NCBI GenBank assembly: GCA_032622095.1
Contig: CP136066.1
Coordinates: forward strand, 206,730,978-206,794,977
DNA length: 64,000 nt
DNA from: Siphonodentalium dalli
Taxonomy: Eukaryota > Mollusca > Scaphopoda > Gadilida > Siphonodentaliidae
Direction of reading: 5' to 3'
Shown here: piece after piece, positions 31,012-63,934 of the stretch
Layout: every line of letters starts with the position of its first letter
How positions within the stretch are numbered: the stretch's first letter is position 1
Translations under genes and position numbers: made by a program
The notes under the pieces: model-generated
What the model saw: only the letters and a program-made list of their open reading frames with translations
What the model was told of the DNA's origin: nothing
The model's database searches: none

Positions 31012-31164
31012 ATTTTTATAGATCAATGGTACACACAAGTGAATCAGTCGCACATGTGAGCTAGTGTGAAAGTATAAACTTTCTCACTCCCCTTCTGAGA
31101 TATCAAAATTGATTTAATAGAGAGTTTTTCGACAAACCATCATTGAACGTATAATATATATAAT

Positions 31165-31360
31165 TACTGAGTTCTGTAGTTCATACAATGCATAGCGCTC
31201 CTATGAGTTGGGAGGCAGAGTTTTCATATGTATACTTACTGAGTTCTGTAGTTCATACAATGCATAGCGCTCCTATGAGTTGGGAGGCAGAGTTTTCATA
31301 TGTATACTTACTGAGTTCTGTAGTTCATACAATGCATAGCGCTCCTCAGATGAGTTGGGA
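31165..31360 (+). repeat. 72-bp minisatellite, ~3 copies
   Basis: tgagttctgtagttcataca, atgcatagcgctcctatgag and ttgggaggcagagttttcat in tandem; the third copy has three extra bases and diverges. In frame as 24-residue repeats, but no gene evidence. Confidence 0.85.
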
Positions 31361-31499
31361 GGGAGAGTTTTCCGATATTCTTCCAGTTGGGTTTTATCCT
31401 TCTGAGAGACATACACCTGAATATATTATGAAAGAGTCCATGACACGGCTATTCAGTTTATATGTAGAATTATCTATTTTTAAAATTTGATTTGGTTTG

Positions 31500-35406: not shown

Positions 35407-35496
35407 ATCTATAACTACTCTGTGACATTTGAATTTCTTAGCAAGTATCATTCTTTTATCTACATCATCCACCAATCGCATGTATTTTTCAAGAAC
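35407..35496 (-). CDS. VIPAS39: VIPAS39 exon n (last exon identified)
   Basis: 90 nt, phase 0 to 0. Acceptor ...aatttttcag, donor ATAGAT|gtaagt. Reads [20 protein letters not shown] then [10 protein letters not shown]. Because it ends in a clean donor, at least one more exon (LKDR and C-terminal WKN region in vertebrates) should follow at lower coordinates; I could not identify it. Confidence 0.96.
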
Positions 35497-38400
35497 CTGA
35501 AAAATTAAGGGGAAAATAGCTCCCATCTAGACTAGAATTGATCCTGAACGTGCCTGTAAATGTCTAATAAATGTTGGTGCAAGGTTTGAGTTTGAGTTTG
35601 AGTTATTTATTCGTTCAACACATACAATTGTCAATAGACAAATAATAACATAATTATACATAGTTATACAATTTCAACATAATAAGGTGTGCCGATGGAT
35701 GCAATTTTGAAATCCAAGATGGCCGTTAGCGGCCATGATTTTTAACAAAGTTTGGAAATATTTGAAGGCTCCCATCCAGTGGTCACCGAGAAGATCCATA
35801 AGATGTTTGGTGATGATTGGATGATGGATGTAGTCTGTAGGATGTGCTAAAGGATTTAGTCATGCAAAGATGGCTGCTGGTGGCCATGTTATTCATCGAA
35901 TGTCGTTGATAATTTGATATTGATAGCTGCCATCTAAATTTGACCCTAAACATGCCTATTAATTTTCAAAACAATTCTCAAATAAATGCGGGTTACAGGG
36001 TGTGCCAATGGATACAAATTTGAAATTCAAGATGGCTACTGGCCATTGTCAAGTTGAGCTACTGAAGTAACACTCACATCTTTAGGTGCATTTTCTCTAT
36101 GGAAGACTTCACAAACTTTATCAAACCCAATTGGTGACTTCATCTTTGTTGTACCAAACCAACCCTGTAAAAGAAAACAATCCTTGCTTGAGAAATTGTC
36201 ATTGTGCCATGGCGCGCATATTCTAAGGAGATGATGCAACATAACCACAGTTCAGCATCAATAATATTTTATGAAGAACAGACAAGCTTTGAAATAGGGT
36301 GTCTGTCATTTGCAGAATGAGGTCCCCAGAGGGTGAATTTAGTTATGCTACCCCACATAGTGGGCTAGCATCACCAAATTCACCCTCTGGGGACCTCATT
36401 CTGCTTACACCTCAGCAGAATGAGGTTCCCAGAGGGTGAATTTGGTGATGCTAGACCGCTATGCGGGGTAGCATCACTAAATTCACCTTCTGTGAACCTC
36501 ATTCTGCAAATGACAGACACCCTATTTCAAGGATTGAGAACAGATAGCCTGTTTATCGCTATATCTTCATTTCATTGTTCTTTTAATTGGTGAATCTTGT
36601 ATTCTTTTATAGTGAAGCAAACACATTTTATACCACAATCGCCTATCTTACTATATAAATAAAGCCATCTGTTTAACTTTTACATGTAATCAACACCTGT
36701 TGATTAAACGTGCCTACTGTTGATTAAACTTCACAGAGTGGATTAAACTTTCTCCATACAATTTGAACGGAAAAGTGTTTATCCATCACATTGTAAAGAT
36801 CGTGGCATAAACTTCGCAGAGTGGATTAAACTTTCTCCATACAATTTGAACGGAAAAGTGTTTATCCATCACATTGTAAAGATCGTGGCATAAACAAAAT
36901 ATATGCATAGTGTTTCTGAATAACAAATTTGAAGCTCGTGGTGTAAATCGCCAATCCCACTCGTGGATTAAATTTGTTATTCAGAAACACTATGTGTATA
37001 CTCTATATACACAGCCAACCAACATCGAAACTAGCATGGACTCTCTACTAGAGAGTGCCTCTGAAACTACCTTTATTGAGAACAAGGAACAAACTAAGTG
37101 CACTGACCAGACACCAGATAATGGTCTGGAACCCACCATATACACACAAAGGCAGATATATCCACAGACATTATCAATCTGTATAAAGCCATTGGCAACA
37201 AGACAGCAAAGGAAATTATACTGAATATACAGTCCAGCTTCCTAGAATATGCGATTCCAAATGGAGTAAGCCCCAAAGGGCTAACTGCCAATACACCATC
37301 AGGGAAAGCCCCACCCGGACATAACCAGAGAACACTTCAACGAGATCCTGTATGGAGATAGTTAATGTCATCACAGACTATCTCTGCTGCAAACATGACA
37401 GACAACACTTGTCGCATTGGACTGCAACCAATTCGGTCACAGTATATCCCGCCTTACATACTAAATCATTGATATACTGCCCGGGGACTCAGATAATGAC
37501 GCAATCACCAAAGTCTGCGAAATTAGGGAAACATACTTTACATTTTACTCAGAATGCTATTTCCTTATGGCTTGAATAGGAAGGACTTTATAGTCACCTC
37601 TCTTCTTATATTCTATATTTATTACACGAAAATTGGTTAACCCTTTACCCAACAGAACGGCCCTGTGCCAATGCATTCTCTTATATATGCGAGTCGACCA
37701 TAGGTCGCCTCGCATATATAAGAGAATGCATTGGCTTAACCCTTTACCCAACAGAACGGCCCTGTGCCAAGGCATTCTCTTATATATGCGAGTCGACCAT
37801 AGGTCGCCTCACATATATAAGAGAATGCATTGGCTTAACACATTAAAAATTATAAAATTGTTAAAGAAAGTAAGAAAAAATGGTAAAAAGTGTAAAAAAA
37901 AGATTTTATTTAGGCCAATGCATTCTCTTATATATGCGAGGCGACCTATGGTCGACTCGCATATATAAGAGAATGCATTGGCACAGGGCATAACTGTAAC
38001 TATCACAATGTGGTCAAGGAGCCGGTTCCAATGATATCCATATGTGTATGGTTCTATTGAGACAGACCGAAGATATTTTAGGCTGTTGAAACTTTATTTG
38101 GCCGGTTTTGGCCGGTTTGTTGGGTAAAGGGTTAACACATTAAAAATTATAAAATTGTTAAAGAATGTAAGAAAAAATGGTAAAAAGTGTTAAAAAAAGA
38201 TTTTTTTTAGGCCAATGCATTCTCTTATATATGCGAGGCGACCTATGGTCGACTCGCATATATAAGAGAATGCATTGCCACAGGTCATCACTGTAACCAT
38301 CACAATGTGGTCAAGGAGCCGGTTCCAATGATATCCATATTTGTATGGTTCTATTGAGACAGACCGAAGATATTTTAGGCTGTTGAAGCTTTATTTGGCC

Positions 38401-41400
38401 GGTTTTGGCCGGTTTTTTTTTGGGTAAAGGGTTAAAGGAAAAGAGACCACTCTTATAAACACATGCATCTTTACATGAAGTCATAATAATTAAGTAATAT
38501 TCATGATGTACTGACCATGTCTATCATTTCAGGCGCACGTGCGTAGGTCATTGTGTGGATCACAAATAAAACATTGCCTTATTTGAGGACATGATTATTA
38601 ATGAGTTTTCACAAAATGGGGGTTTCCTCCTTCATCCCTGAAATCAGTTAGACTACCAGTGTCATCAGACGTAGTTGATAGAAATGAGACGGAGTCAGGA
38701 TATTTACCAGACTGTCAGAGACATATCGGTAGGGGAGAGGGTATTGCATTTTTCACACATCCACCCCAATGGCAACCTAAGTTTTGAAATTTGAAAAGTC
38801 AAGAGAGTCAAAATCATGAACGCTGTAAATTCAAAGCAAGAAAATACTATATTTTTGTTGAAATAGTTACCTAATTGATTTAAATATGATACAATTTCAC
38901 AAATTTAGAGAAATTCAGTTTTTAAGCAACCACCAAGGATGATAGAGTTAGAAATCTGTAGGTGGACCCTCTAGCTATGATTCTGAATGGTACAAAGTTG
39001 CAACTGAAACTGAGAATGTAAACAGGATTTGCAAACCATTTCGAGAAAAAAAATCCAATTATTTTTTCAAAACTTTTATTGCAATTTAAAGGAAATTTCA
39101 TAGGTTTCCTGATCCACTGAAATTCTAGGACCTTTAATGACCAAACATGAAAAGTAATATTTTTAGTTTTCAAACAGATTCAGTATGTAACATGCAAAGC
39201 CAGTTTGGCCTGTATTGCAGATCATTATAGTCGACTGCCATCTCTGTGTGAATCCAAAGCTGCTTCAAATGTTCAATAAGTCTTTGTTACACAATGTTAC
39301 ACATTGAGTAATTTGCAAACTGTATGTATGTTTTCCAGGCATTAGGTCACAAAGATAAAACAAAAATGTGCAAACAGCTTAATGTGAGCGCCTTCTAATT
39401 TTGGTAAAAATATATTACGGAGTCCAAATGCTACTGAAAAGGAACTTGTATTTGTCTGACTGCTGCAATTGCGATCACCATTTTATGAGCAGCACAAGTT
39501 TTAGTAGACCAAATATGCTACCATTTGCAAGTTGATTAAACATTTGTGGGCTTTTCCAGGTTCCAGATAAAAATACCCCCATTTTTACATGACTTCCAGG
39601 CCTGGAAATTTATTTTTCATTTTCCATGACATTTGCAGGATATCAGGACCTGAACGAAGCCCATATAATTAAGTAATATTCATGATGTACTGACATATCA
39701 ATCGTTTGGTGACAGGTTATTGTGCTGTTCAAATATAATGGTAGATCCATTTGGTGTTCAGACTGATATGCAGCTCAACTCTTGGTAAAGGGCTTTCTTT
39801 TTAAGGATGATGCCGTAGCCGAGGTGGTTAGAACATGGATACCATCATCGCAGTCTGGGCCAAGCTTGGTTGGCACGAATTCAAACTCCGACATGGGGGA
39901 AAACCGATTTTCAAACTTGATTTGAGTTGAGGGACATCTCAATGTGCCATTCCAATTGATACATGGCCATTTCGATAAGAAATGAGAATGTGTTCACGCT
40001 CACAGAAACAAGCACATTGAAGCAATGAACACTCATACTGAGTACGTGCCTACATATCTCTCACATATCTATAAACTGGCAAATTTTATTGGGTTCCAAC
40101 AGCAGGTATGAAATTTTTCACAATTCCATTAAATTAACTGTCAGAATATGACCTATTTATAAGACTTAAACCTGTCCACAAAGCTTGATTTATCCAGATA
40201 AATAGGAATAATGGTTATGATTATACATTACCTTTGTCGTCAGTAATTCTTCAAGCTCCTTCCATCGTTTAAGCTTTGCCCTTGCACTTAGTGCAATCCA
40301 TAAGAACTGCTTATCTGTCAACTACCAAGACAAAATAAGATTTGATTGAGAAGTTCAATGGCGTCACACTAAATGCATACACTGTTACTTAGTTTAAAGC
40401 CTTTCATGACTGGAGCATCCTGAAATTTTGCGAAAACCCTGTGACAATCCATTCTCTTATATATGGCGAGTATAGGGAGCCTCGCATATATAAGAGAATA
40501 CAGACGCCTAACAATATTAACCTTGACCTTGTCTTGAAATACTGTGTCTGTCATTTGCAGAATGAGGTCCCCAGAGGGTGAATTTAGTGACGCTATCTCT
40601 CACAGTGGGCTAACATCACTAAATTCACCCTCTGGAGACCTCATTCTGCTTAGGCCTCATCTTCTGGGAAGTATCTATAGTCTCAAATTAACATTATTTT
40701 CAGTTGCTTTTTCCCTTCTGTTCAGTTTTATATCGCCTAATTTGGAGAAGATAAAATGCATAATCGAGGTGACTAATGGGTGAACATCAGCAACTTCAAC
40801 TGGGGAACTTCATTCAGATCCTAGGTCTCCCATAGCAGTTAAGGCCTCAGCAGAATGAGGTTCCTAGAGGGTGAACTTGATGATGCTACCCTGCTGTGTG
40901 GGATAGTCACTAAATTCACCCTTTGTGGACCTCATTCTGCACATGGAACACTATTTGCAGGCTTGACCCTGACTTTAGTCTCAAATACAAAGCCTTGATA
41001 TAGTGTGTCTGTCATTTGCAGAATGAGGTCCCCAGAGGGTAAATTTAGTGATGCTACCCCGCATATCGGGCTAGCATCACCAAATTCACCCTCTGGGGAC
41101 CTCATTCTGCTTACAACTCAGCAGAATGAGGTTCCCAGAGGGTGAATTTGATGATGCTAGCCTACTATGCGGGGTAGCATCACTAAATTCACCCTCTGGG
41201 GACCTCATTCTGCAAATGACAGGCATGCTATTTCAAGGCTTGACAAATACATACCTGGAAATCTTTCTTTATTGAAAACGGACTAGCAATCGATGCCTAA
41301 AAAATGAATAAAACATGTTTTGAAGTTTACAAAAGTCATATAGTGATTTAGAACACAGCTACTAGAATGAAACACTTCATTACAAAATTGACCATGAGTG

Positions 41401-44400
41401 TTCTGTTCAAATTACTTGCCATTCGCTTGGCATATTAAAATTCCAAGCAAAGTTAATAGGACAAGATGGTTGCTTACCGGTATTGGCCACACATCCTCCG
41501 AATAAACTTTAAAAGTGACGTTATTTGACCGGTGGCTTTTTAAGAAATGAAAAATTTGATTCTGGGAACACTCTTTGAATCAGACTTTCTATGTAGAAAA
41601 AGAGCATAACTCCAACAGAAATGGTCGGACCGAAACCCAAATTCGAACATGACCTGTATTATCATGTGATTAATCAACATACTAAATTTGAAAGCGATTG
41701 GATAATCATAACTTGAGTTATCATCAAGACAACATAATAATCAGCAAAGTCTAAGTCGAAAAAGGGCACAACTCCACCAGAAATTGTTGAACCAGATTCA
41801 AATTCAAAATTTTATCGAGACTCTCCAATATGAAGGCCACATACCAGGTTTCATTGAATTGTGTCAAATACTATTCAAGTTATCATCCGGACAACAAACG
41901 TTTCAGACGGACACATGGATGGGCCGACGCAGCTCATTTCTATAGTCCCCTGAAAATTTTGGTTTTGAAGGACAAAAATGTGTATGCATCAAGACAGATA
42001 CCGGTAGTGATCTAACAAATTTTTATGATCAGATAAGAAAAATTGACGTAATCCATGTGATTCCTAAGTGACCTTGACCTGGTATGACTTGCAGCATGTT
42101 TTATTTTTGACTGTCCTCGACACGACCATCTGTGACCGTTATGGTAACAAAAGAGGTCAATTCGCAAATTGAAGCAGAAATTGAGGATTTTTTAACTTAC
42201 TTCAATATTAAACACTCATTGATGAGTAGTTCCCTTATGAAATGTTCAGATAATAATTTCAACAAACTATTGTTGAACTTATTATCTAAACATTTCCCAC
42301 CAGTGAATATGAATTCTTCTGCAGTTGTATTATCATTTCGTCTAGCTGTCATCTGCTAATATGTCCTTAACATCCCTCCAAATGAATAATAGACCATTCC
42401 AATATACATTTTTGTACTTGGTGGGAGAATCCATTTAGTATAGAAAGGGTTAACTTACTTCTGGGAGATCATAATGGTAGAAGGCAGTGTAGTACAGAGT
42501 TGTTATTAACGACTGGTTCATGACGTTGGCTTTGCGTGGATAATCCCTGAGAAGGATGTGACGACCTTCTTGAGCTATCCTTGTATCATCATCCTGTAAA
42601 AGACATAGAGGATCTCGTATGAGTCGCAATTCTATAAAAAATGTATTAACTGGGTGTACTATATTTGATTTGATCCGAGCTGAAGCGAGCCTCGAATCAA
42701 ATTTACAACATAATCACATTTCAGCAAGGAAAAACAATCTCGAAACGGCTGGGGTTAAAAAAAAAATTAATACTGATTTCCTTGTAACAACCAAAGTGGA
42801 AGAAAAGACACCTTCAAGAAAAAATAGAATTCAATTTTAAATGTGTCTTTTCATCTTGATAAAAATTTTCAACCCATGTTTATCTCACATTCAAAACTAA
42901 ATAACCCAGCACAATTTGAATATCATAATTATATTCTAATTAACAGAACTGAAAAAGACAGTATGATTGCGCTCAGCTCTTATGTCACTTCACGTGCCAA
43001 TAATACATGTGTGTCTTACTAAAATATTAGGCCGGGTTTAGGGGCTAATTGATGAATCTCAGATTATTGACAGACAGCGGTAACTGACAAATCGCATTGC
43101 AGCGAACGAAGTTCAAGGACGTCGCCTTCCCAAACAAAAGAACCTCTCGATGATGCATTTACACTCGTTTTAAAATGCTGTTTAACACGATAATATAACT
43201 TCTTTCCGAGATTTTAATGAGGTGTGCGTATGCATCTTGCAATAGTGACATTCGTTATATAAAAACAAATTGGAGCCAGATTCTAACGGTAAATCAACGG
43301 TGATATTTTGGCCAATGCCGAAAACCGACAATGAACGATGTTTACGTTGGATCAGACTGTGTAACAAAAGTCACGAAAACTTCAATATCGACAGGATTAC
43401 AAGGAATACATATGTTTGTTCAAAGGTAGGTTAGTATAGTTTATAAATATATTTCGGATTTTTAAGTGATATAGTTTGCTAAAATAACTTTCGTTTCAAA
43501 GAGGGACAACACAACAGAACAATGATACAAACAAATTACCACCGTTCTTTTTCGGTAGACAACGCCTCAAAGAAATCCAACCTTGTACAATATTATACCG
43601 AATTCTGCCGGATTCAGTAATTATAGTTTCGATGCGGTATACAAGTTTCTTGTTTCAAATGATTCTACTCATCCGTTACCATATGTACAAGGTGTCAAGA
43701 AATCAGACATGGGGAAGTTAGATTTGACGGAGCAGTTCTATCTGACATTAATTATGTAACCTAAGACAAAACTTCGACTTTAGACGATGCGTATTATAAA
43801 CACTACCGAGATTCGACTACATAAACCGGCATCGTTGAATGTACAAAGTCAAACTTAATAGTGACTAAAAATCTATAATAGAAATTAGAGCAAAACATAT
43901 TGTTATTAGTCGATGCATGGATGCAGATAGTTGGTTGGAAGTACTAACAGTTTAAACAATATCTTTCTTCCAGAAGGCATATAAGTTTATCACTTCCGTG
44001 TTATTACAGCTCATTTTGTTATATTATGCAACAACTAAGCTCTATTATTTCTCTAGTGTCGATTACCAATGCCTTCGCAGATCAAACGTGTGAAAAATCA
44101 AATGAAATGCAGCCTTGTTTCCTGTGTGTTAATCCGACACATCCGTTATAGGTTGTGACATCCATTAGTTTATAACCTCTTTAAGAATAACACGGGTGCT
44201 TGTCCCGGCGATTCGAAATGGCCATCGGCTTAACATTACACTCAAAACCAAACACCATATACTTTAAGAACAGTTTGTTTTGCTTCCTTTGTGTGACGTC
44301 ACATCGGTACATCAAAGAAAAAAACCGACGCGTAACTCAGATGAATGGTTGTCACTTTATGGCAAAATCGCACGTTCAATGCTTTCTGACTTCATTTATG

Positions 44401-47400
44401 TTATGACTGCTTTTGAGAAACTGACATGTCTGGCTGGGTAGGGCCAGTTACTTGCTAAAATACCGGCACATGTGTGGAAATTAAGATTGAAAGGGAGGGC
44501 TACTTTCACTACGTATATACATTGGCCCCTACATGTTATCCTTTACAAATAGTTTTTCTCACTTCATAATCATTGCTAGGACCGACAAGCATTACCGTGC
44601 GAATTTCATTCACACTGAAGAAAAAGAAATCACTTAGGACGAAATTATTTCGCATAATTTTTGTCTGGCACATTATTAATTTTTATTGGGCGCAGACGTG
44701 TCCTGGAACATGAATTGATTCAGTCTTAAATCATATCAAAACATTATATTGTTTCCCTCATTTGTATACCATTTTTGATTTTATGCCCAAACAATTCTGG
44801 AAATTAGCACCATGCACTCGCTCTAGCTCACAGCCTCATAAGCCGCTATGATAAAATGGGTGTGTACTTACATCGATGGGTTTCTGTCGTCCAAGGAGAT
44901 CAATCTGCTGTTGTATCATGGCTGAGTCATGTGTTAGCGAGCTGAATCCCTCAAAATGACTCCTGTAAAATGAGTGTCATTCATGTTAACTATCAAATAT
45001 TTATATAACTCTTTGAAAATATATAAAGGAAGATTCGATCGGAACTTTGAACACAGCGATGAGGAGAAACTATATCAATACATGTAGTATGGAAAATTAT
45101 AATTGACAAAAAAATATTTTCAACAAACTATGGATAACATTGCTTGAAATTCTTCACCATAGAGAGGTAGTGATATGTTCTTTGTAAATTAAACCACAAT
45201 GCTTTGTTTAGCTGACTGAATTTGGATGAGGGATAACAAATCTAAAATTCAACCTCATAACATGCTCAGTTGTCTATAACATATACAAGATTTATATCAC
45301 TGGGCTCTAGATGTCACTAGCCAAGAATATCAAGGTCTTATAACTTTTGCTATAAGCAGAGGATCTAAAATTACATAAATTTGTATAATCGCTGATACTT
45401 CTTTTCCACAATCTTTTCTGGCAACATGTCATAATCCTGGTAGTTACAGTTTAACCCTTTCAGTGCCAAGTCCGATTTTTGTATCAACCCATATTTCCTT
45501 GATCATTTTTCAAATTTATTGATTATAATAATGTGATACATTGATGGAAAGAGCTCTATCACATTTTATTATAATCAATAAATTTGAAAAATGATCAAGG
45601 AAATATGGGTTGATACAAAAATCGGACTTGGCACTGAAAGGGTTAAAAGATATCACTATTCATCTGGTGTAAACTTACGTGTAACATTTCTTGAGATTGC
45701 TCAACTTCACTGGCACATTGCTTGTAGCTACTGCTTGTTTATAAATAAGCATCTAAAAAAAATGTAACTGTTTGAAAATGTCATAGATATCTGTTTGTTA
45801 TTATCTGTGATTTACCTTGTCTTTTCAGTTAATAATGAGTATCAATTATTATTTAAATGCAACATGATTTTAGAAATCGATATCTTGTCAAGAAGAATGA
45901 AAAGATTTAAACCATGAACTAGGATAGAAAATTAAATAACAAGAAAAAATATAGTTTTAATTCAGAATGGGGAACTGGTATCATTTGTCTCTGAAACAGA
46001 TTTTACAGAAAAGTCAAAACTTCATGATTGTTGGCTATTAAATTAGTTAATTAAAACTAGTTAATAGATGATGTCAAAATCTTACCTATGTCAATACAAT
46101 GGGGCTAATCTAAGAATAAAGTATGCATTGAATGACCAGACTAAAGGGAAATTCAACAATGATATAATGTTGATATACCGACTGGTATAAAATAGTTTAT
46201 TTTCTCTATATCACCAAATTGGCAGACAACACAATGCACAATCGAGGTGCCTACATCAAAATCTTCATCATCTGGGAACCTAAATATGTGTCTAGGTCTC
46301 CCATAGCAGATGAGGCCATGCAGAATGAGGAAACCAGAGGATGAATTTGTTGATGCTAGCATGCTGTGCATGGTAGCGTTACCAAATCAAGCCTGTCTGT
46401 CATCTGTCATTTGTCATCTGCAGAATGAGGTCCCCAGAGGGTGAATTTAGTGATGCTACCGCGCATAGCGGGCTAGCATCACCAAATTCACCCTCTGGGG
46501 ACCTCATTCTGCTTACACCTCAGCAGAATGAGGTTCCCAGAGGGTGAATTTGGTGATGCTAGCCCGCTATGCGGGGTAGCATCACTAAATTAACCCTCTG
46601 GGAACCTCACTCTGCAAATGACAGACACACTATTTCAAGGCTTGTACCAAATTCACCCACTGGGGACCTCATTCTGAAAATGACAGACATACTATTTCAA
46701 GGCTTGTACCAAATTCACCCACTGGGGACCTCATTCTGCAAATGACAGACATACTATTTCAAAGCTTGTACTAAATTCACCCACTGGGGACCTCATTCTG
46801 CAAATATCCGGTACCAGAATAATACTCACAGCTGCTTCTTCTTTTCTGCCTAAAAATCTAAAAATAGAAAATGGCAGTCAGAATACGAATTTCCATGGAC
46901 AAGACCTAATCAAATTCACGGATAATGGATTGGGCAAAGCGTGGCGCACATGATCGTGTAAAAAAATTATGTTGTTAAGGGGAGTAAACTCAAACCACTC
47001 ACTGACTAGTGACTATACAATGACTTAATGGGTATATGGGACTAGTATGCATATAATATAACATTTATTTGATACATTTGCTTGAAAACTGTCCAAAAAT
47101 TACTCGACAACGACAATTGGTATTTTCGCATTCCGGCTAATCTGCCATCCGTAACATTACATCGTACTCAACAGACTTTCAAATAATGGAAATTTGGTTA
47201 CCTTATTCTACAACTCAGAGACATTGGCGAGTAGAATGACATATATATCGTCTATCGGTTGAGGAGTAGAACGACATATATGTCGTTTCAGAGTGTTATT
47301 TTATGTAGACAAAACTTCAATAAATCATCTGATTTATAAATGATTTGTATAGGAGTTATTTTGATTAATATAATGCCCCAAATGTATAAGTGCAATCGAT

Positions 47401-50400
47401 TATGATAACACACGTTAAAAAAAAATGCACATAAATTAAAACGAATTATTGGACCCTTTTGACCCAAACTTGTTAATAATTATTGCTATGACGCTCACGT
47501 TTAATTTACTCATGACGTCATGTATATGACGTTACAGATACTCTCCAATGGGTTAAGAAACCAACAACAACATTTGGATACAGTATCCCCTTAAAGAAAA
47601 TTTCCAACTCACATAAGTAAATCTTCTAATTCCTTGAGTTTATGACTGGACTTGAGATAGGTGATGTAATGATTAACAGCTACCTGACGCTGTATAAGCT
47701 CTTTGTTGAATATCGGAGCTTTCAATGTCATTTTCAGGAACAATATTATCTGTAAATAAATTAGCAATGAAGCATCACAATCATTAGATTTAACCGTTTC
47801 ATGAATGGAACTTCCTGAAATTTTGCAAAAATACTGTGCCAATGCATTCTCTTATAGGGAGCCTCACATATATAAGAGAATACATTGGCCTAACAATATT
47901 TACCTTCACCTTGTAAGCCAGTGCATTCTCTTATATATGTGAGACTCCCTATGGGAGACTCGCATTTATCACATAATTTGGCCATAAAAGCAGTTTCATA
48001 ATTATCGGTAATAGACACGTTTAATATCAGCGCGTGCGATGACGTCACGGCGTTCTTCAGATAACTTGCGATCGCTGTAGTTTATGATTGTTGTTTTCGA
48101 TGAATATTTCGCGTTGCTTCGGGTTTATTTGATCATGTGATAAAAGGTATCTCACACTCGTCCTATTTTATACGTAATTTATCAACCTCGTCCTCTAAAT
48201 TCTATTTGAGCCTCGGTAAACCTCGGCTCAATCGAATTTAGTGAACTCGGTTGATAAATTCCGTATAAAATAGGAACTCATGTGAGATCCTCTATATATA
48301 AGAGAATGCACTGACCCAGGATACTTAATGCTGCACCAGCAAAGCTCCCATCATGAATGGTTTCAAATATTACAAATTTATACATTCTGATCAATGACCA
48401 ATAAACTTTAATAAATTCCTAAATGTTTGATTTCAGAAGATTCTAGTTAATAATTTCTTCAAAATATAGGTTCAAATTATTGAGTAACATTATTGAGTCT
48501 AACTAGCGTTATCTCATGTATTACAATGTGTTTTATACATCACTTCATGTGATTTGTCATGTTTTGGTTGGTGGTTTTAACCCTTTACCCAACAAACCGG
48601 CCTAAAAGGGCCGTTCTGTTGGGTAAAGGGTTAACATGATGACTGCCAACTCGTACACAATCATTCAAGTCAAATTTATAGTAGGATCATCTGCTAATTG
48701 ATTAGGTGATACAGCTTAACTGGTAAAAAAAAGCGCTCATGGCAGTGGACTATCAAATAGTGGGCCACCAAATTCAATAAAACAGTAATGAGGATAAACA
48801 CCAATGAATCCTTTGTTTGTCATAAGGCTACATTGTAGATAGTGGGTAGTGGTATATTGTCAAGTAACAATGGTGAGATTAAATAAGTCTAGACATGGTA
48901 TTTGAAGGTATGGACATAATTATATAGAAGATTAGATGTTAAGTAAAACAAAAGTATTAATATTAATTGCGAGACCAGAAATTGAGATTTTAATTTGTCC
49001 AAAGTTTTTTTAATTTGGCCAAAAAAAATCAGAATTTGCAACAACAAAAATTGGCCCAGCATGAACACTGACAATGAGTAATTAGTGTAGATAAGGTTAA
49101 TTTGTTAGCTGAAGATCCTTACACATTAATCTAAAGAGGTTTCTGATCGTTTCTCTGACTGTCGTCTGCTTATAAAATATGAACATTGCTAGGGGCTTGT
49201 TACATAAGCCGGGACAACTCTGTCGTACTGTTACAAGAGCAGAGATAACTCTCAGCATCACTAAATTCACCCTCTGCGGACCTCATTCTGTAAATGTCAG
49301 ACACACTAAATCCAGGCTTGGCTGTATCTAATATACTTACAGCCATTATTGCATTCCCATCATGCAATTCTATTGACTTATCAAGCAACTTAAGCTTATC
49401 CTCTTTTGATTTATACATCTCCAGTGAATATTTCTGTAAATCGAAATGGTGATATGATACATAAGATTGAGACAATGCATACTGTCTGTGTGGTTAACAC
49501 AAAATCATGTTTGCCAATAGGTCAGTTGCCAATCGGGTCTAGTTTTTGATATGGGGAAACCACCATCGACTGTTAACAATATATATATACAATATATAGT
49601 ACAAAAAGTAATGCAATATAGACAGTTATCATAAAAACAATTAACCATATTGTCTGGTTTTTTAACTTTTAACTGAACAGTATAGTCACAGTTACCGAAT
49701 ATAAAGCGAAAAATAAATTAATATTGCGTTCAGTTGATAATACATTGAACTTTATGATCCAGCAATGAAGACAATTATCTGCAGGTAGATTTAAGATTGC
49801 CTGCGAGGACAGCAGGCCGTGACAAAATGCGACTTACAAACGCATATTGAATTACATCATAATTATGTCAAGCAATTTATCTGCGCATGCGCCACATTCT
49901 ACTTTCACTTAATGCAGAGTTAGCGTTTACAATGATATGATTTAATTTATTTGAATGGACGTATGATCCCAGTGACATTTAAACATTTTGTCGTGGTTGA
50001 TATTCCAAATAACCCAAAATGACCATATTCCTGATTACAGTAATGCCCTAATTAATCGACTCCATAACCACAGCAGAATTATGGGTAACTAAATCCTGAA
50101 AAATTACCCATAATTCTGCTGTGGTTATGGAGTCGATTAATTAGGGCATTACTGTACTTCTCAATATCACTAATATTATATTATAAAGCCGAGTTTTGAG
50201 CCTATGACTTCGAGTTCTATGTGTATTCACACATTTATCGCGACAAAAATATTCCCCAATCTCGGTGGTAACAGTCAGTCAGACACACAGTGTCATCAGG
50301 TACATTTCAAGGTATCATATATTACATCGGTTGTCGAAATTTCTACATGATGATGGCCGTTGTCTGATATCCCAGTCAATGTTCGTCTTGTGTAGCAAAG

Positions 50401-53400
50401 AATCTATTTTAGTTACATCAAAGGACAGCCGTCGGCCTTGCAGACAGGCAGAATAAGATTTTTGGCGCAATTAATTTCCTGATTTTTTCGGAATGTCAAT
50501 TAGTTTATATATTGGCTAAAACATGATTTTCCATCTGTACAAGAAAACTACATACGTACAGTGAAACCTGCAATTTACAACCATGAGCGACCACCTGTCT
50601 TTTGTGACCAAATTCCTTTTGTACAGACCATTTTAACTATATAAATGACCACCAGTCGGTATAGTGCGGCAAAAACATAAATATTTACTTGTTATGAACG
50701 ACCACCGGTGAGCGACCACCGGTTGGTATATCGTGGCAAAAACATAAATATTTACTTGCTAAGAACGGCCAATTCCATAGAAAAAATAAATAAATTTGTG
50801 CAAAAAAGTTAAACTTTAAATGCACACAAACATATGTACTTATTTTATTCCCCGCTGTGAACCCCGAGTCTGTCAGTATATGATGCACGTGAGGGTATTC
50901 GTTTCACATGTCAATTAAGGTTACCGTATATTTTAAAGAGGTGAGAACTGCTCACTGGTGATTAAGAATGTATGAATAGAAGACACTTGAGGCCCATTTG
51001 GTAGATAAAAGGGTTTATGCAAGCAGTTAATTATGAAGTCACTTTGGTCTCGAGAATGGATTCATGTTTACACTTTGAAGACGCACGGTCTGAAATTGTA
51101 TTGTTTTACTTATAATCTACGGAAAGCGTACAAATCATCTCGGCTTGTATTACATGGGCTTCTTCCTATATAGGTTCATATACCATTATGCAACAGTTAT
51201 ATTTCAAATCTTTCTCATGCTCTTCAGTTACTTATAATTTCAAAATTTATTGTGTTGGTACTCCTTCCAAAAAGCGTAAGAATCTTAATTTAGAGGAGCG
51301 AATGAAAGTTTTAGATCGTTCAGAACAGTGCTCGCAAAATCGCATTGGACTTTAGTGTAAGGGAAAATTCAATCTATATTAAATCAAAGCTCTTACCTCA
51401 CCGTTGATCATGCGACTAAGCATATCGTCGATTGGAACTTTAGCATATTTACTCTCTTCTGCTGCCTGTGGAATAATCAATATTTATCACTTTATTATTC
51501 ATACATTTATTAGTAATTTAAATATTGAGGACTTATTTCATTGAATAAAATTAATTAGTTAGTATCAGTTATTTCATTGAATAAAATTAATCAGTTAGTA
51601 TCAGTTATTTCATTGAATAAAATTAATCAGTTAGTATCAGTTATTTCATTGAATAAAATTAATCAGTTAGTATCAGTTATTTCATTGAATAAAATTAATC
51701 AGTTAGTATCAGTTATTTCATTGAATAAAATTAATCAGTTAGTATCAGTTATTTCATTGAATAAAATTAATGTTAGTATCAGTTATTTCATTGAATAAAA
51801 TTAATCAGTTAGTATCAGTTATTTCATTGAATAAAATTAATCAGTTAGTATCAGTTATTTCATTGAATAAAATTAATCAGTTAGTATCAGTTATTTCATT
51901 GAATAAAATTAATCAGTTAGTATCAAAACACTCATTGGAAGAATGTAGCGATGAAATAATATTGGCGAACATTCCAACCAAATCAACTGTACCATTTCAG
52001 AGTTTCAGATAACACAACGGTAATTGTAAATATTTACTACTTATTTGGGATGCATTATTGGGCATAAACATTACGGTAATGATAATAATCACTGCAAGTA
52101 ATTTGTTTATTACGGTAATGATAATAATCACTGCATGTAACATTACGGTAATGATAATAATCACTGCATGTAATTTGTTTATTACGGTAATGATAATAAT
52201 CACTGCATGTAATTTGTTTATTACGGTAATGATAATAATCACTGCATGTAATTTGTTTATTACGGTAATGATAATAATCACTGCATGTAATTTGTTTATT
52301 ACGGTAATGATAATAATCACTGCATGTAATTTGTTTATTACGGTAATGATAATAATCACTGCATGTAATTTGTTTATTACGGTAATGATAATAATCACTG
52401 CATGTAATTTGTTTATTACGGTAATGATAATAATCACTGCATGTAATTTGTTTATTACGGTAATGATAATAATCACTGCATGTAATTTGTTTATAACGGT
52501 AATGATAATAATCACTGCATGTAATTTGTTTATAACGGTAATGATAATAATCACTGCATGTAATTTGTTTATAACGGTAATGATAATAATCACTGCATGT
52601 AATTTGTTTATAACGGTAATGATAATAATCACTGCATGTAATTTGTTTATTACGGTAATGATAATAATCACGGCATGTAATTTGTTTATAACGATAATGA
52701 TAATAATCACTGCATGTAATTTGTTTATTACGGTAATGATAATAATCACTGCATGTAATTTGTTTATTACGGTAATGATAATAATCACTGCATGTAATTT
52801 GTTTATTACGGTAATGATAATAATCACTGCATGTAATTTGTTTATAACGATAATGATAATAATCAATGCATGTAATTTGTTTATAACGATAATGATAATA
52901 ATCACTGCATGTAATTAGTTTATAACGATAATGATAATAATCACTGCATGTAATTTGTTTATTACGGTAATGATAATAATCACTGCATGTAATTTGTTTA
53001 TAACGATAATGCTGTTTTCTGCCTATTATGATATCAAATTAATGAAAATAACTTATTTTTGCATGGCTATTTGTGACCCGCCATATCAAATCCGGTATTT
53101 TTTTACCCTGTGCCAATGCATTCTCTTATATATGCGAGTCGACCATAGGTCGCCTCGCATATATAAGAGAATGCATTGGCCTAACAATTTTTTACAATTT
53201 TAATAATTTTTTCTTGTATTCTTTAACAATTTTATAATTTCACCCATACAGAGCCCCAGACAAACATGAGCAGACGACACTCTTCTATATGCTTCTATAT
53301 ATGTGTGGGGCTCCCTGCAGGGTAATGGATGTTTTTTATTTTATGTCCTAAAAATTGTCAGAAACATTTATTTAAAAAAAAAGGAAAAAAAATTGTTAGG

Positions 53401-56400
53401 CCAATGCATTCTCTTATATATGCGAGGCGACCTATGGTCGACTCGCATATATAAGAGAACGCATTGGCACAGGGTAAAAAAATCCTGACTTCCGACTGGA
53501 TTTGATATGGCGGGTCAAATTTGTTATACCGCCGGAACACATCAGCTGAGTGTTTCACATCAAACTTGACTTTGAGCTAAAAACGCACCTTCATGTCAAA
53601 ATTCAATAGCAGTAGAAAAAGATAGTAAAGAGTAAGTAAATGAAAGAGAAGCCTAAAGTAATGCCCTAAATAATCGACTCCTTAACCACAGCAGAATTAT
53701 GGGTAATTGTTTTAGGATTTAGTCAGAAATATAGCTTGTTGCCATTCATTGGAAAGCTCTTAGTGAGAGCTTTCCGATGAATGGCAACAAGCCATATTTC
53801 CGACTAAATCCTGAAAAATTACCCATAATTCTGCTGTGGATAAGCAGTAGATTATTTAGGGCATTACTGTACCTCTAGTCGTCTTGTTAACATATTGCAC
53901 TGTGCTTCCAAGTGAGCCAGATCAGCCAGGTTTGGTGTCTTCTTAGGTACATTTGGCTCAGTAACTGAAAAAGATGTTATTACAGATTTTTGGTGGTCTA
54001 CAGCAAAGACACTTGTCTGGTATTTTTATCACTTATTGGAACAACAATATACTCCACCCTTGTACATTGGTTTACCAGTTTAATTTAGGTAACTTCACCA
54101 TAATTTGTTTTGATTACTTCATTTTCGTGCCCTGAGGCAGGACCATCCATGCACTATGATCAATTCTTTGAGTGTTGCAAACAATATGTACATCTAGTTA
54201 GAGGCTTTTCTGGAAAAAATACATAAAATCAGCTGTGAGCCGGTGCATACCACAACACAGCATCCGGTGAATCAAGGATTACCACAAAATAATCAAGTGC
54301 AACACCAATCAACACCAAGCCCCCGATGCTCAGTTTAGAGCGGGCAATATTAAATATTTGTATGGATGGAAAAAAAAAAAAAATCGGAATCCAAGAAGGT
54401 CCATTACTCGGGGGTAATCAATTGATAAAACACATTGTATTCTTTCCCACATATTGACCTATCACTATTCTAAAGATATTGAAATCCAAAGAAGGAAAAT
54501 CTTGCTATTTCCAACAAGAGCAATCACTCTGATAAAAGACTTAGACAAAACGTGTCAGTATACTTCAATCAATCATTCCAAATAACATTCAAGCAAGCCT
54601 TGGAATAGTGTGTCTGTCATTTGCAGAATGAGGTCCCTAGAGGGTGAATATAGTGATGCTACCCCGCATAGCGGGCTAGCATCACCAAATTCACCCTCTT
54701 GGGACCTCATTCTGCTTACACCTCAGCAGAATTAGGTTCCCAGAGGGTGAATTTGGTGATGCTAGCCCACTATGTGGGGTACCATCGCTTCATTCACCCT
54801 TTGGGGACCTCATTCTGCAAATGACAGACACCCTATTTCAAGGCTAACATTCAAGTTTGACCATTTCTACTGGAGTTACGATGCAGAATGTCTGTACAGA
54901 GTGAGAATTAAATATAATTCTAAGTCCAACATTTCCATTACTCTGTTAACGATGAACAGACAAACCCCACAGTAAGTGGGTATCTGTTCCCCTAAACTGG
55001 ACTATCAACAAACCAAAGCACAACCAAATCTGCTGATCCATGTTACAAGTTCATACAGACACAAAATTCACAAGCCAAACAAGGGCTGTAACTCTGGTAT
55101 AAATACTGTACTGAATTAGATAGTCCCTAGAGGATGAATTTGGTCACATTAGCCCACTGTACAGGGCAGCGTCACTAAATTCACCCTCTGGGGACCTCAC
55201 TTTTCAAATGTTCGGCCCCATATTTTCAGGCGTGAATACCTTCTTGAATGGAGGGTTCACTGGAGTTCAAACTGCTTTTCACCTCTCCAGCTTTGAATTG
55301 GACAGAGGGCCATGCATCAGTAGTTCCTGAAAATTTGTCATAATATTAACCCCTTCATGATGAGAGCAAGGCTCAAAATAAATGGCCGGTCATCGTCATT
55401 GTCCGATGAAAAATAGCTTTTGTCCAGTGCACTTCAGTGTCCATCGGACATTTTGTCCAATGCAATTCTTTAACCCTTTGAGTGCCAGGTCCGATTTTTG
55501 TATCAACCCATATACCCTATGCCAATGCATTCTCTTATATATGCGAGTCGACCATAGGTCGCCTCGCATATATAAGAGAATGCATTGGCCTAACAATTTT
55601 TTTTTTTTTTTTTTTTTTGGTGACAATTTTTTACAATTTTAATAATTTATTCTTTAACAGACTTATTTTGTAGGTTTAGGGCCGATGAGATCGGCCCCTG
55701 GCACTCAAAGGGTTAAACAATCTGTATCTGTCCAAGGAGCCAAATAGGACATTGAAAATAAACAAGACAGTCAATGACTGTGGGGTCGCTCACCAGACTG
55801 CAAAGACTGATAAGACTGGGACTCTGGAGACCAAAACAGTCAGCACTTTTCATAATCACTTTAAAAGAAGTAGATTTAAACAGGATATGTGGCTAGAGAG
55901 ACTTCAAGTATGTAGCTTGGTAAAAATCCACCTTGAAATTGCCAACTGTACACTACTGATCACCCCCCTCCTCCAGCTCAACAAGTCCCCTCCCGACCGG
56001 GATCCAGACTCCCAAGTCTTAGGTTGGAATTTCACAACCGACACCTCAAACTTTCTCAATTGTTGGAAATTTCCAATCTCACAAGCGCCTTTTTCTAAAA
56101 CCATTTAAACATGTTTGAAGCCCAATTATCCATGGACCCAAAACACAATACATGTATGTCAGACCAATCAGTCAGGTGGTTCCAAGGTAGATGTTTTAAT
56201 GAATTTGGTTTTTCTATGATTTTATTGGACACAAAAGTGTTAACTCCTTATAGACTGCCATTTCTTGACAGGTTGACCTCATTTTAACAAATCTGTATCT
56301 CAGTCACTAAAGGATCTTCCTGATTCCTCCATACTATATGTAAGCTAAATAGTCCAAAATCCCTTGAGAAGACATTTTAAGAATTACTATAGAGACATAT

Positions 56401-59400
56401 AGTTATGTCCCTGGTCCCACCCTATTTAACCGGGTGACCCCATCTGAATAAATTTGAATCCCAGACACCAAAGAACCCTTCATACATATCATAAATATCA
56501 GTCAAATAGACCTGATGGTCCTTGTGAAGGAAGCATATTAAGAGGGAAACTGTCCTTCGCTTGGCCCCTATTTGACCAGGTGACCCCATTAAAAAAATCT
56601 GAATTGCAGTCAACGAAGAACATTCCATTCTATATAAGCCAACTAGTTCTTGCAAACATATTTTAAGAATTACTATGTAGCGAAATAGTTAAGTCTCTTG
56701 CTCTGCCCTTATTTGACTTTGTGATCCCATTTTCACAAATCTGATAAGGATAAAAATTAAGTTCCCCAGTTGAAGTTGGTGATATTCACCCATTGGGCAC
56801 CTCATTTATGAATTTTATCTTCTGCAAATTAGGGGATATAGAAACTTCCTAGAAGGGAAATTTAACTAACAACAATGTAAATTTGATACTATAGATACTT
56901 CCCAGAAGATGAGGCCTAAGCAGAATGAGGTCGCCAGAGGGTGAATTTGGTGATGCTAGCCTGCTGTGCCGGATAGCATCACAAAAAGCGTGTCTGTTCC
57001 TACATTGTGTATGCCTGGCCTCAAGCAACACAATGTATTATACAACAAGCCTTGAAATAGTGTGATAGTGTGTCTGTCATTTGCAGAGTGAGGTCCCCAG
57101 AGGGTGAATTTAGTGACGCTAAATTCACCCTCTGGGGACCTCATTCTGATAAAGTCCTCAACTGCTATGGAAGACCTAGAATAAAATTGAATTTCCCCAG
57201 TTGAAGTTGGTGATGTTCACCCATTGGGCCCCTCAATTATGAATTTTATCTTCTGCAAATTAGGGGATATAGAAACTTCCTAGAAGGGAAATTTAACTAA
57301 CAACAATGTAAATATGATACTATAGATACTTCCCAGAAGATGAGGCCTAAGCACAATGAGGTCCCCAAATGGTGAATTTGGTGATGCTAGCCTTGAATCA
57401 AGCTTTGAAATAGTCTGTCTGTTATTTGCAGAATGAGGTCGCCAGAGGGTGAATTTGGTGATGCTAGCCTGCTGTGCCGGATAGCATCACAAAAAGCGTG
57501 TCTGTTCCTACATTGTGTATGCCTGGCCTCAAGCAACACAATGTATTATACAACAAGCCTTGAAATAGTGTGATAGTGTGTCTGTCATTTGCAGAGTGAG
57601 GTCCCCAGAGGGTGAATTTAGTGACGCTAAATTCACCCTCTGGGGACCTCATTCTGATAAGGCCCTCAACTGCTATGGAAGACCTAGAATAAGATTGAAG
57701 TTCCCCAGTTTAAATTGGTGATGTTCACCCATTGGGCACCTCAATCATGAATTTTATCTTCTGCAAATTAAGGGATACAGAAACTTCCTAGAAGGGAAAT
57801 TTAACTAACAACAATGTAAATTTGATACTATAGATACTTCCCAGAAGATGAGGCCTAAGCAGAATGAGATCTTGAGACCCTAGATACTTCCCAGAAGATG
57901 AGGCCTAAGTGGAATAAGGTTCTCAGAGGGTGTATTTGGTTATGCTAGCCTGCTGTGTAGGATAGCGTCACTAAATTCACCCTCTGGGAACCTCATTCTC
58001 CAAATGCCAGGCACTCTGAGAAAATGAAATTAATCTGATTTTAATGACCACTGAGTGATAATGTAAACAACAAGGGTGCTTCATTGATAACACCATTAAT
58101 CTCATTTAAATTATGGATGACATGAATACACTCCCTGGGGACTCTGCCTAAGGCTGCAGAAGCTATCTTTATCTCTCTATCTGCCTTGCCATGTGCCTAT
58201 CAGTTCATAGGAGAGTTGCCTTGTAATGGGAATTTAAAAAAAAAAAAACTTTATTTACCTGTGAGTTAGGATATGAGATAGGGTGGAATGCTGTTGGTTG
58301 GGGGCAGGGTGGGGTTCTGGGTCATGTGGGGGGGGGGGTGATATTTTTTTTTGTATGTTAAATTGATGAAGGAGTTCCTGAATTTTTTATTATTTTTTGG
58401 GGAATTATGGAACTATTTGACCCAGTGACCCCATTTGAACAAATCTGAACCCCAGTCATTCAATGACCCCACATACCAAATATAAACTAAATCGGCATAA
58501 TGGTTGTTGACAAGAAGTCGTTATAAGAATTACCAAGGAGGAATATAGTTATGGGCCTGGTTTCGCAACTGTTTGACACAGTGACCTCATTTGAACAAAT
58601 CTGAATGACAGGTACCTAGGGAACATCCACACCAAATATGATCAAAATGCAAAAATGTAATTTTTTGGTTTTTAGAGTTATGTCCCTGGCTCTGTCCCTA
58701 TTTGACCCAGTGACCCAATTTGAACAAATCTGATTCCCAGTCACCCAAGGTCCCTCGGTAGCAAATATAAGCTAAATCGGCCCAATATATTTTTAGAAGA
58801 AGTCATTGTAAGAATCACTATGAGTTATGGCCCTGGTTTCTCAACTAATTGACCGGGTGACCTCATTTGAACAAATCTGAACACCAGTCACCCAAGGACT
58901 CTCCATACCAAATATTAGCTAAATTGGCACAATGGTTATGGACAAGAAGCTGTTGTAAGAATTACTGTGGAGGAATAGAGTTATGGCCCTGGTTTCGCAA
59001 CTATTTGACCCAGTGACCTCATTTGAACAAATCTGAATGAGAGTCACCTAGGGAACATACACACCAAATATGAACCAATTCGGTATGATGGTTTAAGAGG
59101 AGAAGATGTTTTTTAAAAAGTTGACGGACGGACAGACGGACAGACGGACAGACGGACAGACGGATGGACAGACAGACGGACAGACGGATGGACGGACGAC
59201 GGACGAGGAGTGATGACTATAGCTCCACCGGAGACTTTGTCTCAGGTGAGCTAAAAATAGTTCTTTTCTAATTTCAGATCAATTCATAGTGAATATAATT
59301 ATGTCTAATTGCATATGTATTTATTAATCGACATACAGTTTTTGAACTTTTGAAAATAAAAATAACATGGGTTTTTCCTAGGTGGCAATTGGACGCTCAC

Positions 59401-62400
59401 TAAAATGTGCGCATCATTGACAAATAATAAGTTGATTGAAAATTTAAATACTGTCTCATACAGTACATCTGAAAATTTGACAGGCACCATTTTGAAATGA
59501 CCAACACCATCCATTTGGTGCCTGTCATTTTGACAGTTGGTTAAAAAATTATTATTTTGAGCCTTGGATGGGAGCTGTGAGGGTGCAGCATTAAAGATCC
59601 TGTGCCAGTGCATTATCTTATATATGCGAGTCTCCCATAGGGAGCCTCGCATATATTAAAGAATGCACTGGCTTACATGGTCAAGGTAGATATTGTTAGG
59701 CCAATGTATTCTCTTATATATGCGAGGCTCCCCATGGGAGACTTGCTTATATAAGAGAATGCATTGGTACAGATTTTTCGCAAAACTTCAGGAAGCTCCA
59801 GTCATGGAAGGGTTAACCATGTCTGTACTCAATGAATTCTCCATACAGTTATAAATGTATACATTGGAATGGTCTATTATTCATCTGGAGGTGTTTGTGG
59901 AAAATCATAAGCAGACAAAAGATAATACAAGTATACAAGTACAAAAAGGACTTATTGGAGACAAATGTTTAGATAATAAGTTTCTTGAACTTATTATCTG
60001 AACATTTCCTATGGCATAACTACTAATCAATGATGCTTGAGTATAGAAAGGGTTGACAATCATGACCGCTAAAGAATAAATAAGGAAGCTGAGGCCATTT
60101 TGACAGAAGCCATAAATGTCATTTGTGTGTATACCTAGTTAGATGTCACAGACCTCAAAATTAGCCAAGGCACTAAGCAATGCCGTGGAAAATGCAGTGA
60201 CAACATTTGAATCTAACATGCCACAGCATTAAATTGCTGCGGGACATTTTTCCTAATTTTGAGGGCTGGATGAGTGGATGTCATCAGTATTTTTTAAAAG
60301 GGTTCAAGACATATTATGTACTTATTTCAGGGCATCAGACTAATTAGTGTGTACCCACATTTCCCACTGATATAATGTACAGTAATGCTCTAAGTAATCG
60401 ACCCGTTAACCACAGAAGAATTATGGGTAACTTTTCAGGATTTAGTCGGAAATATGGTTTGTTGCCATTCATCGGAAAGCTCTTGGCGAGAGCTTTCCTA
60501 TGAATGGCAACAAGCCATATTTCCGACTAAATCATGAAAAGTTACCCATACCACGTACCAAATATCAAGAAATCAGTTGAATATTGCTCAAGTTGTCATC
60601 CAGGCAACCCAAAAAAGCAATTACTAAGTCAAATAGAAGGTCGCAGACCCCATATCCCCCGAATCGAGGTGGCTTTTTGGGATGTTCGCTTTTTTTAGGA
60701 ACAAAGGAGTAAAATAAATTCTGTCAATATTTGACTCCAACTAGACGATGTCCTGCGTGTTCTCAAAGGTGAGCCACACTCAAGTATCAAGAGATTCATT
60801 TGAAGATTGCCCAATTTATCATTAAGACAAATTTCATTCCATTCAGCTGAGACTATCTAAAGTTATCATCCGGGAACCAAAAAGTGAACGAATGGACAGA
60901 CAGATGGTTGGATGGATGCCCCAACGAATGCACCAAAAACATTATACATCCTGTTTTTTAAAACGAGCGTATCAAAATTGATACTGTATGTAAAATACAT
61001 ATATATGTATATCCTCAATGTAATAATTGTCAACGTGTGTATTCTTAGAGAGACTTATTTTCATAATGGTCAGTGTTAGCTGGCAAATAAAATTATCTTT
61101 GTTTATCATTCCCCATTGGTTTTATTTAGTGGGAGATTCACAGGCATTATAAGCATTGGAGTGGGATGTGTACAGGTATATTATGTGCGGGAGAAAAAAT
61201 TTGGGCTCGGGTAAAGAGGCCCTAAAAGGGGAAAAAAGCGGAAACCCTGGGTATAGTTCACTTAATACATTGTATCAGCTGAACAATCGCATATTTTTCA
61301 TGAAGGAATTATTTATTGAACTCTTACATTGTATGTATCTCAGAATATAAAGACATGGATGTGTAATAAACACAGAACGACACAAGTGTGTTAATGGGTT
61401 TGTTGATACAGCACGAGTGCTAACACGGAATGATAGAATGAGAGGCACAGCCTCCGCGATGGCACAAGTGCCCTGTCAACAAACTCAGGGGTGATAGGAA
61501 GACAGGCAGTCATGACTATATCACCCCTAACAATACACATGTATAGTCTATTAATATTATATTTATTTGTAATTGTACTTTCCATGCATGTATATTGTAA
61601 ATAAAACAAGAGGTGTGCACTCGCGTGCTAGCATACCCCCACTGTGGCAAATTCAACCCGCATTATCCGTAAACCTAATAAAAAAGATTTTTAACTTTAA
61701 AGAAAAATTTAGATTAATTATATCGATATGGTGTCGCAAGAAGCTCATACAGGAAAAAATATTCAAATTGGTTCATCCACAAAAAAAAAATCCCAAAATT
61801 TTCTAAGTCAAAATAAGTCGAAAATGAAGTGTAATGTTAGGAAAAACAGTCCGAGCCAACCCTGAGCCGCATCATGTAGAGAGGGTGTTGTGAGAAGCAT
61901 GTATACCAAAAATTATTGAAATCGGTCCATATTTGTTAAAGTTATTAAGTCGGACAGAATTTTCTAAGTCAAAATAAGTCGAAAAGTAAGGCGTAACTTA
62001 AACAAGAGGTGTGCACTCGAGTGCTAGCATACCCCCACCGTGGCAAATTCAACCCGCATTATCCGTAAACTCAACCAAAAAGATTTTTAACTTTAAAGAA
62101 TAATTCGGACTAATAATATCGATATGGTGTCACAAGAAGCTTGTACAGAAAAAATTATTCAAATCGGTTCATATTTGTTAAAGTTATTAAGTCAGACAGA
62201 ATTTTCTAAGTCAAAATAAGTTGAAAATGAGGTGTAATATTACGAAAAACAGTCTGAGCCAACCCCTAGCCGCATCATGTAGAGAGGGTATTGTGAGAAG
62301 CATGTATACCAAAAATTATTGAAATCGGTTCATAGTTGTTCGAGTTATGAGGTCGGAAGGACGGACGGACGGACGGACGTACCAACAAATGGGTAGATAT

Positions 62401-63730: not shown

Positions 63731-63934
63731 TTAACTCTTCCATGACTGGAGCTTCCTGAAATATTTTGAAAACCCTGAGCCAATGCATTCTCTTATATAA
63801 GCCAGTGAGCCATATATAAGCCATATAAGCCAGTGCATTCTTTAATATATGCAAGGCTTCCTCACATATATAAGATATACTGGCACAGGATATTTAATGC
63901 TGCACCAGCGCAGCTCCCGTCATGAGAGGGTTAA
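63731..63934. mobile_element. piggyBac-like MITE with diverged palindrome modules
   Basis: TTAA|ctcttccatgactggagc at the left, gctcccgtcatgagagg|TTAA at the right; contains partial 66-bp modules. Confidence 0.75.

Follow-up and report, generated by a model that had tools for sequence, protein, structure and literature searches.

The window analysed here, a stretch of 64,000 nucleotides from the scaphopod Siphonodentalium dalli, carries on its minus strand (31312 to 63704) a VIPAS39-like gene, of which 16 exons were placed and whose 5' part runs beyond the window edge (Table 1). The assignment is based on the translation of the joined exons, which matches the Pfam family Vps16_C with 51.9 bits (cutoff 21), and on exons g to q, which are 44% identical to human VIPAS39 over 312 aligned positions. 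No relative of VIPAS39 was found in the PDB at an E-value of 0.1 or better. The exon phases from e to g mismatch unless a short intervening exon, f, is assumed, and a search of 50346-49434 did not locate it; the donor of exon e (CAT/GTAGAA, exon/intron) is weak. The last VIPAS39 exon was not located either. The exons called a to n in an earlier reading of the sequence alone were taken to correspond to a, b, c, e, g, h, i, j, k, l, m, n, o and p of the present model, exons d and q being additions. Two tandem repeats were observed within the span of the gene and at its lower edge. In the intron between c and d, a 39-bp array (52067-53011) comprises about 24 copies with 96% matches and keeps more than 300 codons open in two minus-strand frames. 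At 31154-31372, on the minus strand, the end of exon q has been copied along with the donor that follows it in a 72-bp repeat, producing two GTAAGT donors and a third that reads GTAATT, with short gt...ag stretches separating the units. A stringent splice-site scan found no second gene in the window: it returned 13 candidates, none ending below 31500, one of them on the plus strand within the VIPAS39 span (54004-54088) and the other 12 on the minus strand above 31.5 kb, and its cut-offs would also lose several VIPAS39 exons, which makes it weak evidence of absence. A Pfam search of 10 of the 254 open segments gave nothing above the cutoffs.

Table 1. Exons of the VIPAS39-like gene model and transposable elements lying next to its splice sites (window coordinates; F1, hAT-like family; F2, TA-flanked family; plus signs count intronic bases from the donor)
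Feature	Coordinates	Strand	Place and remarks
Exon a	63704-63495	-	
Exon b	55326-55240	-	
Exon c	53964-53873	-	
Exon d	51465-51402	-	from phase and splice sites
Exon e	50436-50347	-	
Exon g	49433-49341	-	
Exon h	47749-47613	-	
Exon i	46857-46830	-	
Exon j	45752-45679	-	from phase and splice sites
Exon k	44962-44872	-	
Exon l	42593-42459	-	
Exon m	41296-41255	-	from phase and splice sites
Exon n	40321-40232	-	
Exon o	36164-36078	-	
Exon p	35496-35407	-	
Exon q	about 31417-31312	-	from reading the sequence
F1 hAT-like element, degenerate	55113-55234		+6 of donor b (55240)
F2 TA-flanked palindromic element	53656-53869		+4 of donor c (53873), inserted at the TA of GTA
F1 element, near end only	49253-49320		+21 of donor g (49341)
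F1-derived block, 62-bp tandem units, truncated	46205-46806		similarity from about +24 of donor i (46830)
Palindromic TTAA element	45451-45646		+33 of donor j (45679)
TTAA-ended element	42193-42453		+6 of donor l (42459)
F1 element, exact 8-bp TSD TGTATTTG	40990-41243		+12 of donor m (41255)
TTAA element	63731-63934		ends 26 bp upstream of acceptor a (63704)
TTAA element	47790-47983		ends 40 bp upstream of acceptor h (47749)
Relative of palindromic element near 48149-48297	42605-42705		ends about 11 bp upstream of acceptor l (42593)

By self-comparison, about 44% of the window is repeated sequence, and three classes of elements bear on the pattern described below. The F1 family is near-palindromic, about 250 bp long, with CAAGCC-type ends and 8-bp target site duplications (TSDs); its three short TSD-bearing copies have CAAGCCTTGAAATAG-type ends and are about 87-90% palindromic over about 250 bp. 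The 8-bp TSD is exact at 24922-25735, 36283-36536 and 40990-41243, is contained in an 11-bp flank repeat at 54594-54844 and has one mismatch at 27579-28013; no such duplication was recovered beside the donor b, g and i elements. Such duplications, together with terminal inverted repeats and a lack of coding capacity (judged from size only), are those of hAT-like MITEs, as which these elements can be provisionally classed. Two blocks (2803-5766 and 55761-58141) contain many F1-type cores and share flanking sequence, and are perhaps a longer composite relative of this family. The F2 family is palindromic, with CAGTAATGCCC ends at TA; the dinucleotide is found on both sides in three of the five copies with both ends listed, and on one side only in the other two. 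Tc1-type ends begin with CAGT, and the TA duplication and the inverted repeats starting with CAGT suggest that F2 is a Tc1/mariner-like MITE. The third class, the TTAA group, consists of several families that start with TTAACCC. A TTAA on both sides, as expected of piggyBac-like elements, was found at 45451/45646 and 63731/63934; the element at donor l also has TTAA at both ends, yet its far end bears a 12-bp repeat of the donor, which makes it a less clean case of this class. A search of viral_contigs with two exact patterns of terminal inverted repeats gave no matches.

Once element ends had been reset by termini and TSDs, 7 of the 16 donors had an element no more than 35 bp away, and in three cases (c, b and l) at most 5 bp separated donor and element. 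The pattern reported by the sequence-only reading is partly borne out, with its numbers corrected: it had counted eight of fourteen donors within about 35 bp, four of them within 5 bp. The seven elements are hAT-like, TA-flanked and TTAA-flanked. TSDs accompany those at donors c, m and j, and the one at donor j, with 82-nt arms that are 100% complementary, looks young. The far end of the element at donor b and its far-end TSD were looked for and neither was found. Donors a, d, e, h, k, n and p are free of elements out to 35 bp in the curated annotation, one loose mask putting a repeat 36 bp from donor p. Two donors were left uncounted: donor o, flanked by a degenerate repeat of about 60% identity whose start varies between +32 and +41 according to how it is scored (it is included by two of the four automatic masks), and donor q, where the neighbouring sequence is the 72-bp tandem duplication of the exon end and no MITE. 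Raw self-similarity counts (9/16 donors and 4/16 acceptors within 35 bp) were discarded because, under permissive scoring, elements were drawn out into exons b, c, g and i. This displacement is also what would be expected if the whole pattern were an annotation artefact, in which similarity extended past the true ends brings elements nearer to donors; the seven elements, however, stay within 35 bp after their ends are reset, and such an origin is very unlikely.

On the acceptor side, an element lies within 35 bp of 2 of the 16 sites, acceptors l and a. The sequence-only reading had named acceptors a and b as the only close ones; the TTAA end near acceptor a is upheld, the one proposed for acceptor b (55346) is not distinguishable from shuffled sequence (scores of at most 31 against eight copies, with 300 shuffles of one copy reaching 35), and the exclusivity is lost with acceptor l, where the alignment of the element scores 93 versus a maximum of 58 in 200 shuffles. 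The sequence upstream of acceptor l, perhaps including its branch point, sits inside that element. The element at acceptor h is 40 bp away in the curated set and 34 bp away by the automatic masks. Acceptor d was dropped as a candidate: similarity to a 36-bp array reaches to 13 bp from it, and the array itself starts 67 bp away.

The counts were compared with simulations in which the element blocks of each intron were placed at random inside that same intron, with ends as curated. Elements occur in 14 of 15 introns of the curated set and in 12-13 of 15 under the four automatic masks; acceptor a and donor q stayed outside the simulations, as the window or the gene model does not contain their introns in full. 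All P values that follow are post hoc, as the gene and the distance were picked after seeing the pattern. An element within 35 bp was seen at 7 donors versus 1.79 expected (P 0.0004), within 12 bp at 4 versus 0.63 (P 0.002) and within 100 bp at 8 versus 4.5 (P 0.026); among the acceptors covered by the simulation, 1 was seen within 35 bp versus 1.79 expected. For the donor-minus-acceptor difference, the simulation gave P 0.001, 0.013 and 0.057 at 35, 12 and 100 bp, respectively. A threshold-free Fisher combination gave P 0.003 for donors and 0.58 for acceptors, and the curated ends yielded 0.012 in a Kolmogorov-Smirnov test of donors and 0.086 in a paired Wilcoxon test. The four automatic masks gave similar numbers, with 7, 7, 8 and 8 donors within 35 bp (1.4-1.7 expected, P 0.0003 or less), 1, 2, 2 and 2 acceptors (1.4-1.7 expected) and paired Wilcoxon values of 0.013, 0.064, 0.034 and 0.047. 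The direct contrast between donors and acceptors is borderline (one-sided Fisher tests: 7/16 versus 2/16 within 35 bp, P 0.057, or 7/16 versus 3/16, P 0.126; 4/16 versus 1/16 within 12 bp, P 0.17; 3/16 versus 0/16 within 5 bp, P 0.11). The pattern is thus an excess at donors without a shortage at acceptors.

Donors c, m and l were examined at close range, with donor scores taken from a generic matrix. The reconstructed empty site of donor c, GAG/GTAGGC, has a score of 3.69 and a modelled U1 pairing of -9.3 kcal/mol, versus 0.20 and -5.7 kcal/mol for the present GAG/GTACAG, in which the F2 insertion replaced bases +4 to +6. Donor c is thus predicted to have been weakened by the insertion, which did not leave its 6-base donor as before, and it now forms the foot of a long hairpin, the fold of exon c with the element and flank giving -168.5 kcal/mol. 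Donor m (CAG/GTATGT) scores 5.96 both today and in its reconstructed empty site. At donor l, the 12-mer GAA/GTAAGTTAA (42450-42461) has an exact second copy 258 nt downstream, at the distal end of the neighbouring element (42192-42203), as if the donor had been copied along with the target; a TTAA element should duplicate 4 bp only. Exact matches of at least 12 bp within 700 bp downstream were found for 39 of 400 random GT sites in the gene, chance matches of this length being common because the region is repeat-rich, and the repeat at donor l may be of little meaning. These sites bear on an introner-like origin, according to which MITEs created the introns or their donors. The element does supply +4 to +6 of donor c, introners can recruit a 5' splice site from their TSD according to excerpts of a published study (PMC9860276), and a merged repeat block covers 849 of the 933 bp of the intron between m and n. 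However, none of the 15 introns is spanned from donor to acceptor by an element block, the nearest being this same m-n intron with gaps of 11 and 73 bp, and its block contains more than one element, since 40990-41243 has its own TSD. Furthermore, the good donors in the reconstructed empty sites of c and m predate their elements, which speaks against the creation of those introns by introner-like insertion and leaves this origin extremely improbable.

Insertion preference near donors, the alternative offered by the sequence-only reading, can be divided into a form guided by DNA sequence and a form guided by the state of the locus. Regarding the first, TTAA occurs at 7.6 per kb in the first 35 bp of 15 donors versus 8.0 in all introns, and the pattern.T....A. 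at 91 versus 101 per kb. For TA, the density in this stretch is 1.5-fold that of all introns (126 versus 84 per kb), a figure that describes the present-day sequence and partly reflects the donors' own GTA and the element ends. The 136 other element edges in the window show no adjacency to donor-like motifs (P 0.67; a good donor beside 4.4% of them versus 3.3% of 4000 random places) in what is a blunt test, the edges coming from similarity and few being TSD-defined, so that attraction to donor-like sequence left no sign. The donor pattern is moreover shared by three TSD classes, and therefore no single transposase's target explains it. Regarding the second form, several DNA-transposon families might favour sites just downstream of exons through chromatin or co-transcriptional state, with no DNA motif involved, the candidates being a nucleosome edge, a paused polymerase or U1 bound at 5' splice sites. 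In agreement with this, the donor excess persists under every mask and in the threshold-free combination, it is common to different families of which one element (donor j) looks young, and, of the roughly eight F1 loci that a hand count gives for the gene, four lie within 25 bp downstream of a donor. However, these observations come from one gene and are post hoc, the edges elsewhere leave only an effect of functional sites, and the stringent scan offered no second gene for comparison in the window, making such guidance a rather unlikely cause. Its broader version, that cut-and-paste transposons of several superfamilies favour the roughly 35 bp downstream of functional 5' splice sites in this genome under chromatin, splicing or transcriptional guidance rather than that of a DNA motif, with the 3' edges of exons as integration hot spots, is doubtful to a slightly greater degree.

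The explanation that we favour, on balance and with some reservation, combines MITE insertions with tolerance on the donor side, the excess being mostly due to chance and case selection and perhaps to protection at exon edges. Non-autonomous DNA transposons with three kinds of TSDs (8 bp, TA and TTAA) would have repeatedly entered the introns of the repeat-rich VIPAS39 gene. Insertions just 3' of a 5' splice site would survive because the exon and the first intronic bases remain intact upstream of the element, and the duplicated target kept on the donor side would partly preserve the donor. Near acceptors, an insertion would persist only where the region of the branch point and pyrimidine tract is retained or is provided by the element itself. 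We infer that tolerance of this kind, with selection at acceptors, makes donor-adjacent insertions possible. The argument of the sequence-only reading that a donor needs only about six intronic bases accounts for such tolerance, but not for the donor excess or the undepleted acceptors, and the six-base rule is not strict at this gene, where one element starts at +4 of donor c and another ends about 11 bp from acceptor l. If constraint by splice signals were at work alone, acceptors would be expected below the random level and donors no higher than about that level; with 7 donors versus 1.8 expected and 1-2 acceptors versus 1.4-1.8 expected, tolerance alone is insufficient here. The excess would most likely stem from chance and from the choice of a gene that shows it, with a possible addition from elements flanking exons that are shielded from deletion. 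As a cause in its own right, this last process supposes that deletions slowly clear intronic elements and spare those flush with an exon, as their deletion would cut the exon, and that near acceptors selection against insertion counterbalances the effect. Consistent with it, the donor b and g elements retain the exon-facing end, and their far end was not found; those at c, j and m have both ends, though, and the one at donor i is without its exon-facing end. The complementary arms and young look of the donor j element also do not fit a slow enrichment by deletion, and edge protection as the main cause is unlikely.

Mammalian retrotransposons offer the closest comparison. Excerpts of a study of these elements (PMC3088655) describe a donor-side bias at distances below 20 bp, explained by splice signals through a constraint of about 6 bp at the donor versus 20-50 bp at the acceptor. 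In both systems, as far as those excerpts go, the elements nearest to exons tend towards the donor side, with a borderline contrast in VIPAS39, and the length of the splice signals has been offered as the explanation. The mammalian near-exon elements are described there as underrepresented overall, whereas in VIPAS39 donors lie above and acceptors at expectation; furthermore, DNA transposons were excluded from the mammalian donor/acceptor analysis, unlike the MITEs considered here in one gene, and the mammalian elements were mostly old and fixed, with little trace of insertion preference. Among molluscs, the haemoglobin genes of Lucina pectinata (PMC4732748) also have MITE-like elements in several introns, although the passages available to us describe their short direct repeats as unidentifiable and contain no splice-site distances. 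Introners, as portrayed in excerpts of PMC9860276, resemble the VIPAS39 elements in being DNA-transposon-like, with terminal inverted repeats and TSDs touching splice sites, and differ from them in that an introner is a whole intron, whereas the long introns of VIPAS39 contain elements whose insertions at c and m are postdated to the reconstructed donors. Among the titles listed by the literature searches, none was a genome-wide study of donor distances of DNA transposons in molluscs.

Taken together, the donor-side pattern first noted from sequence is partly confirmed as real but small, and is of a known kind, the tolerance of intronic elements on the donor side. The surplus relative to random placement is suggestive, one gene being too little for a new rule and unable to decide among chance with case selection, protection from deletion and preference for functional splice sites. 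An excess that held across the whole genome would allow insertion preference to be told apart from selection at splice sites, a test for which young palindromic MITEs are suited, unlike the mostly old, fixed elements of mammals as described in excerpts of PMC3088655. As a single gene, the locus mainly extends a known bias to the DNA transposons of another animal, and donor c provides a concrete case in which an insertion altered positions +4 to +6 of a splice site and the reading frame of the gene is still open.
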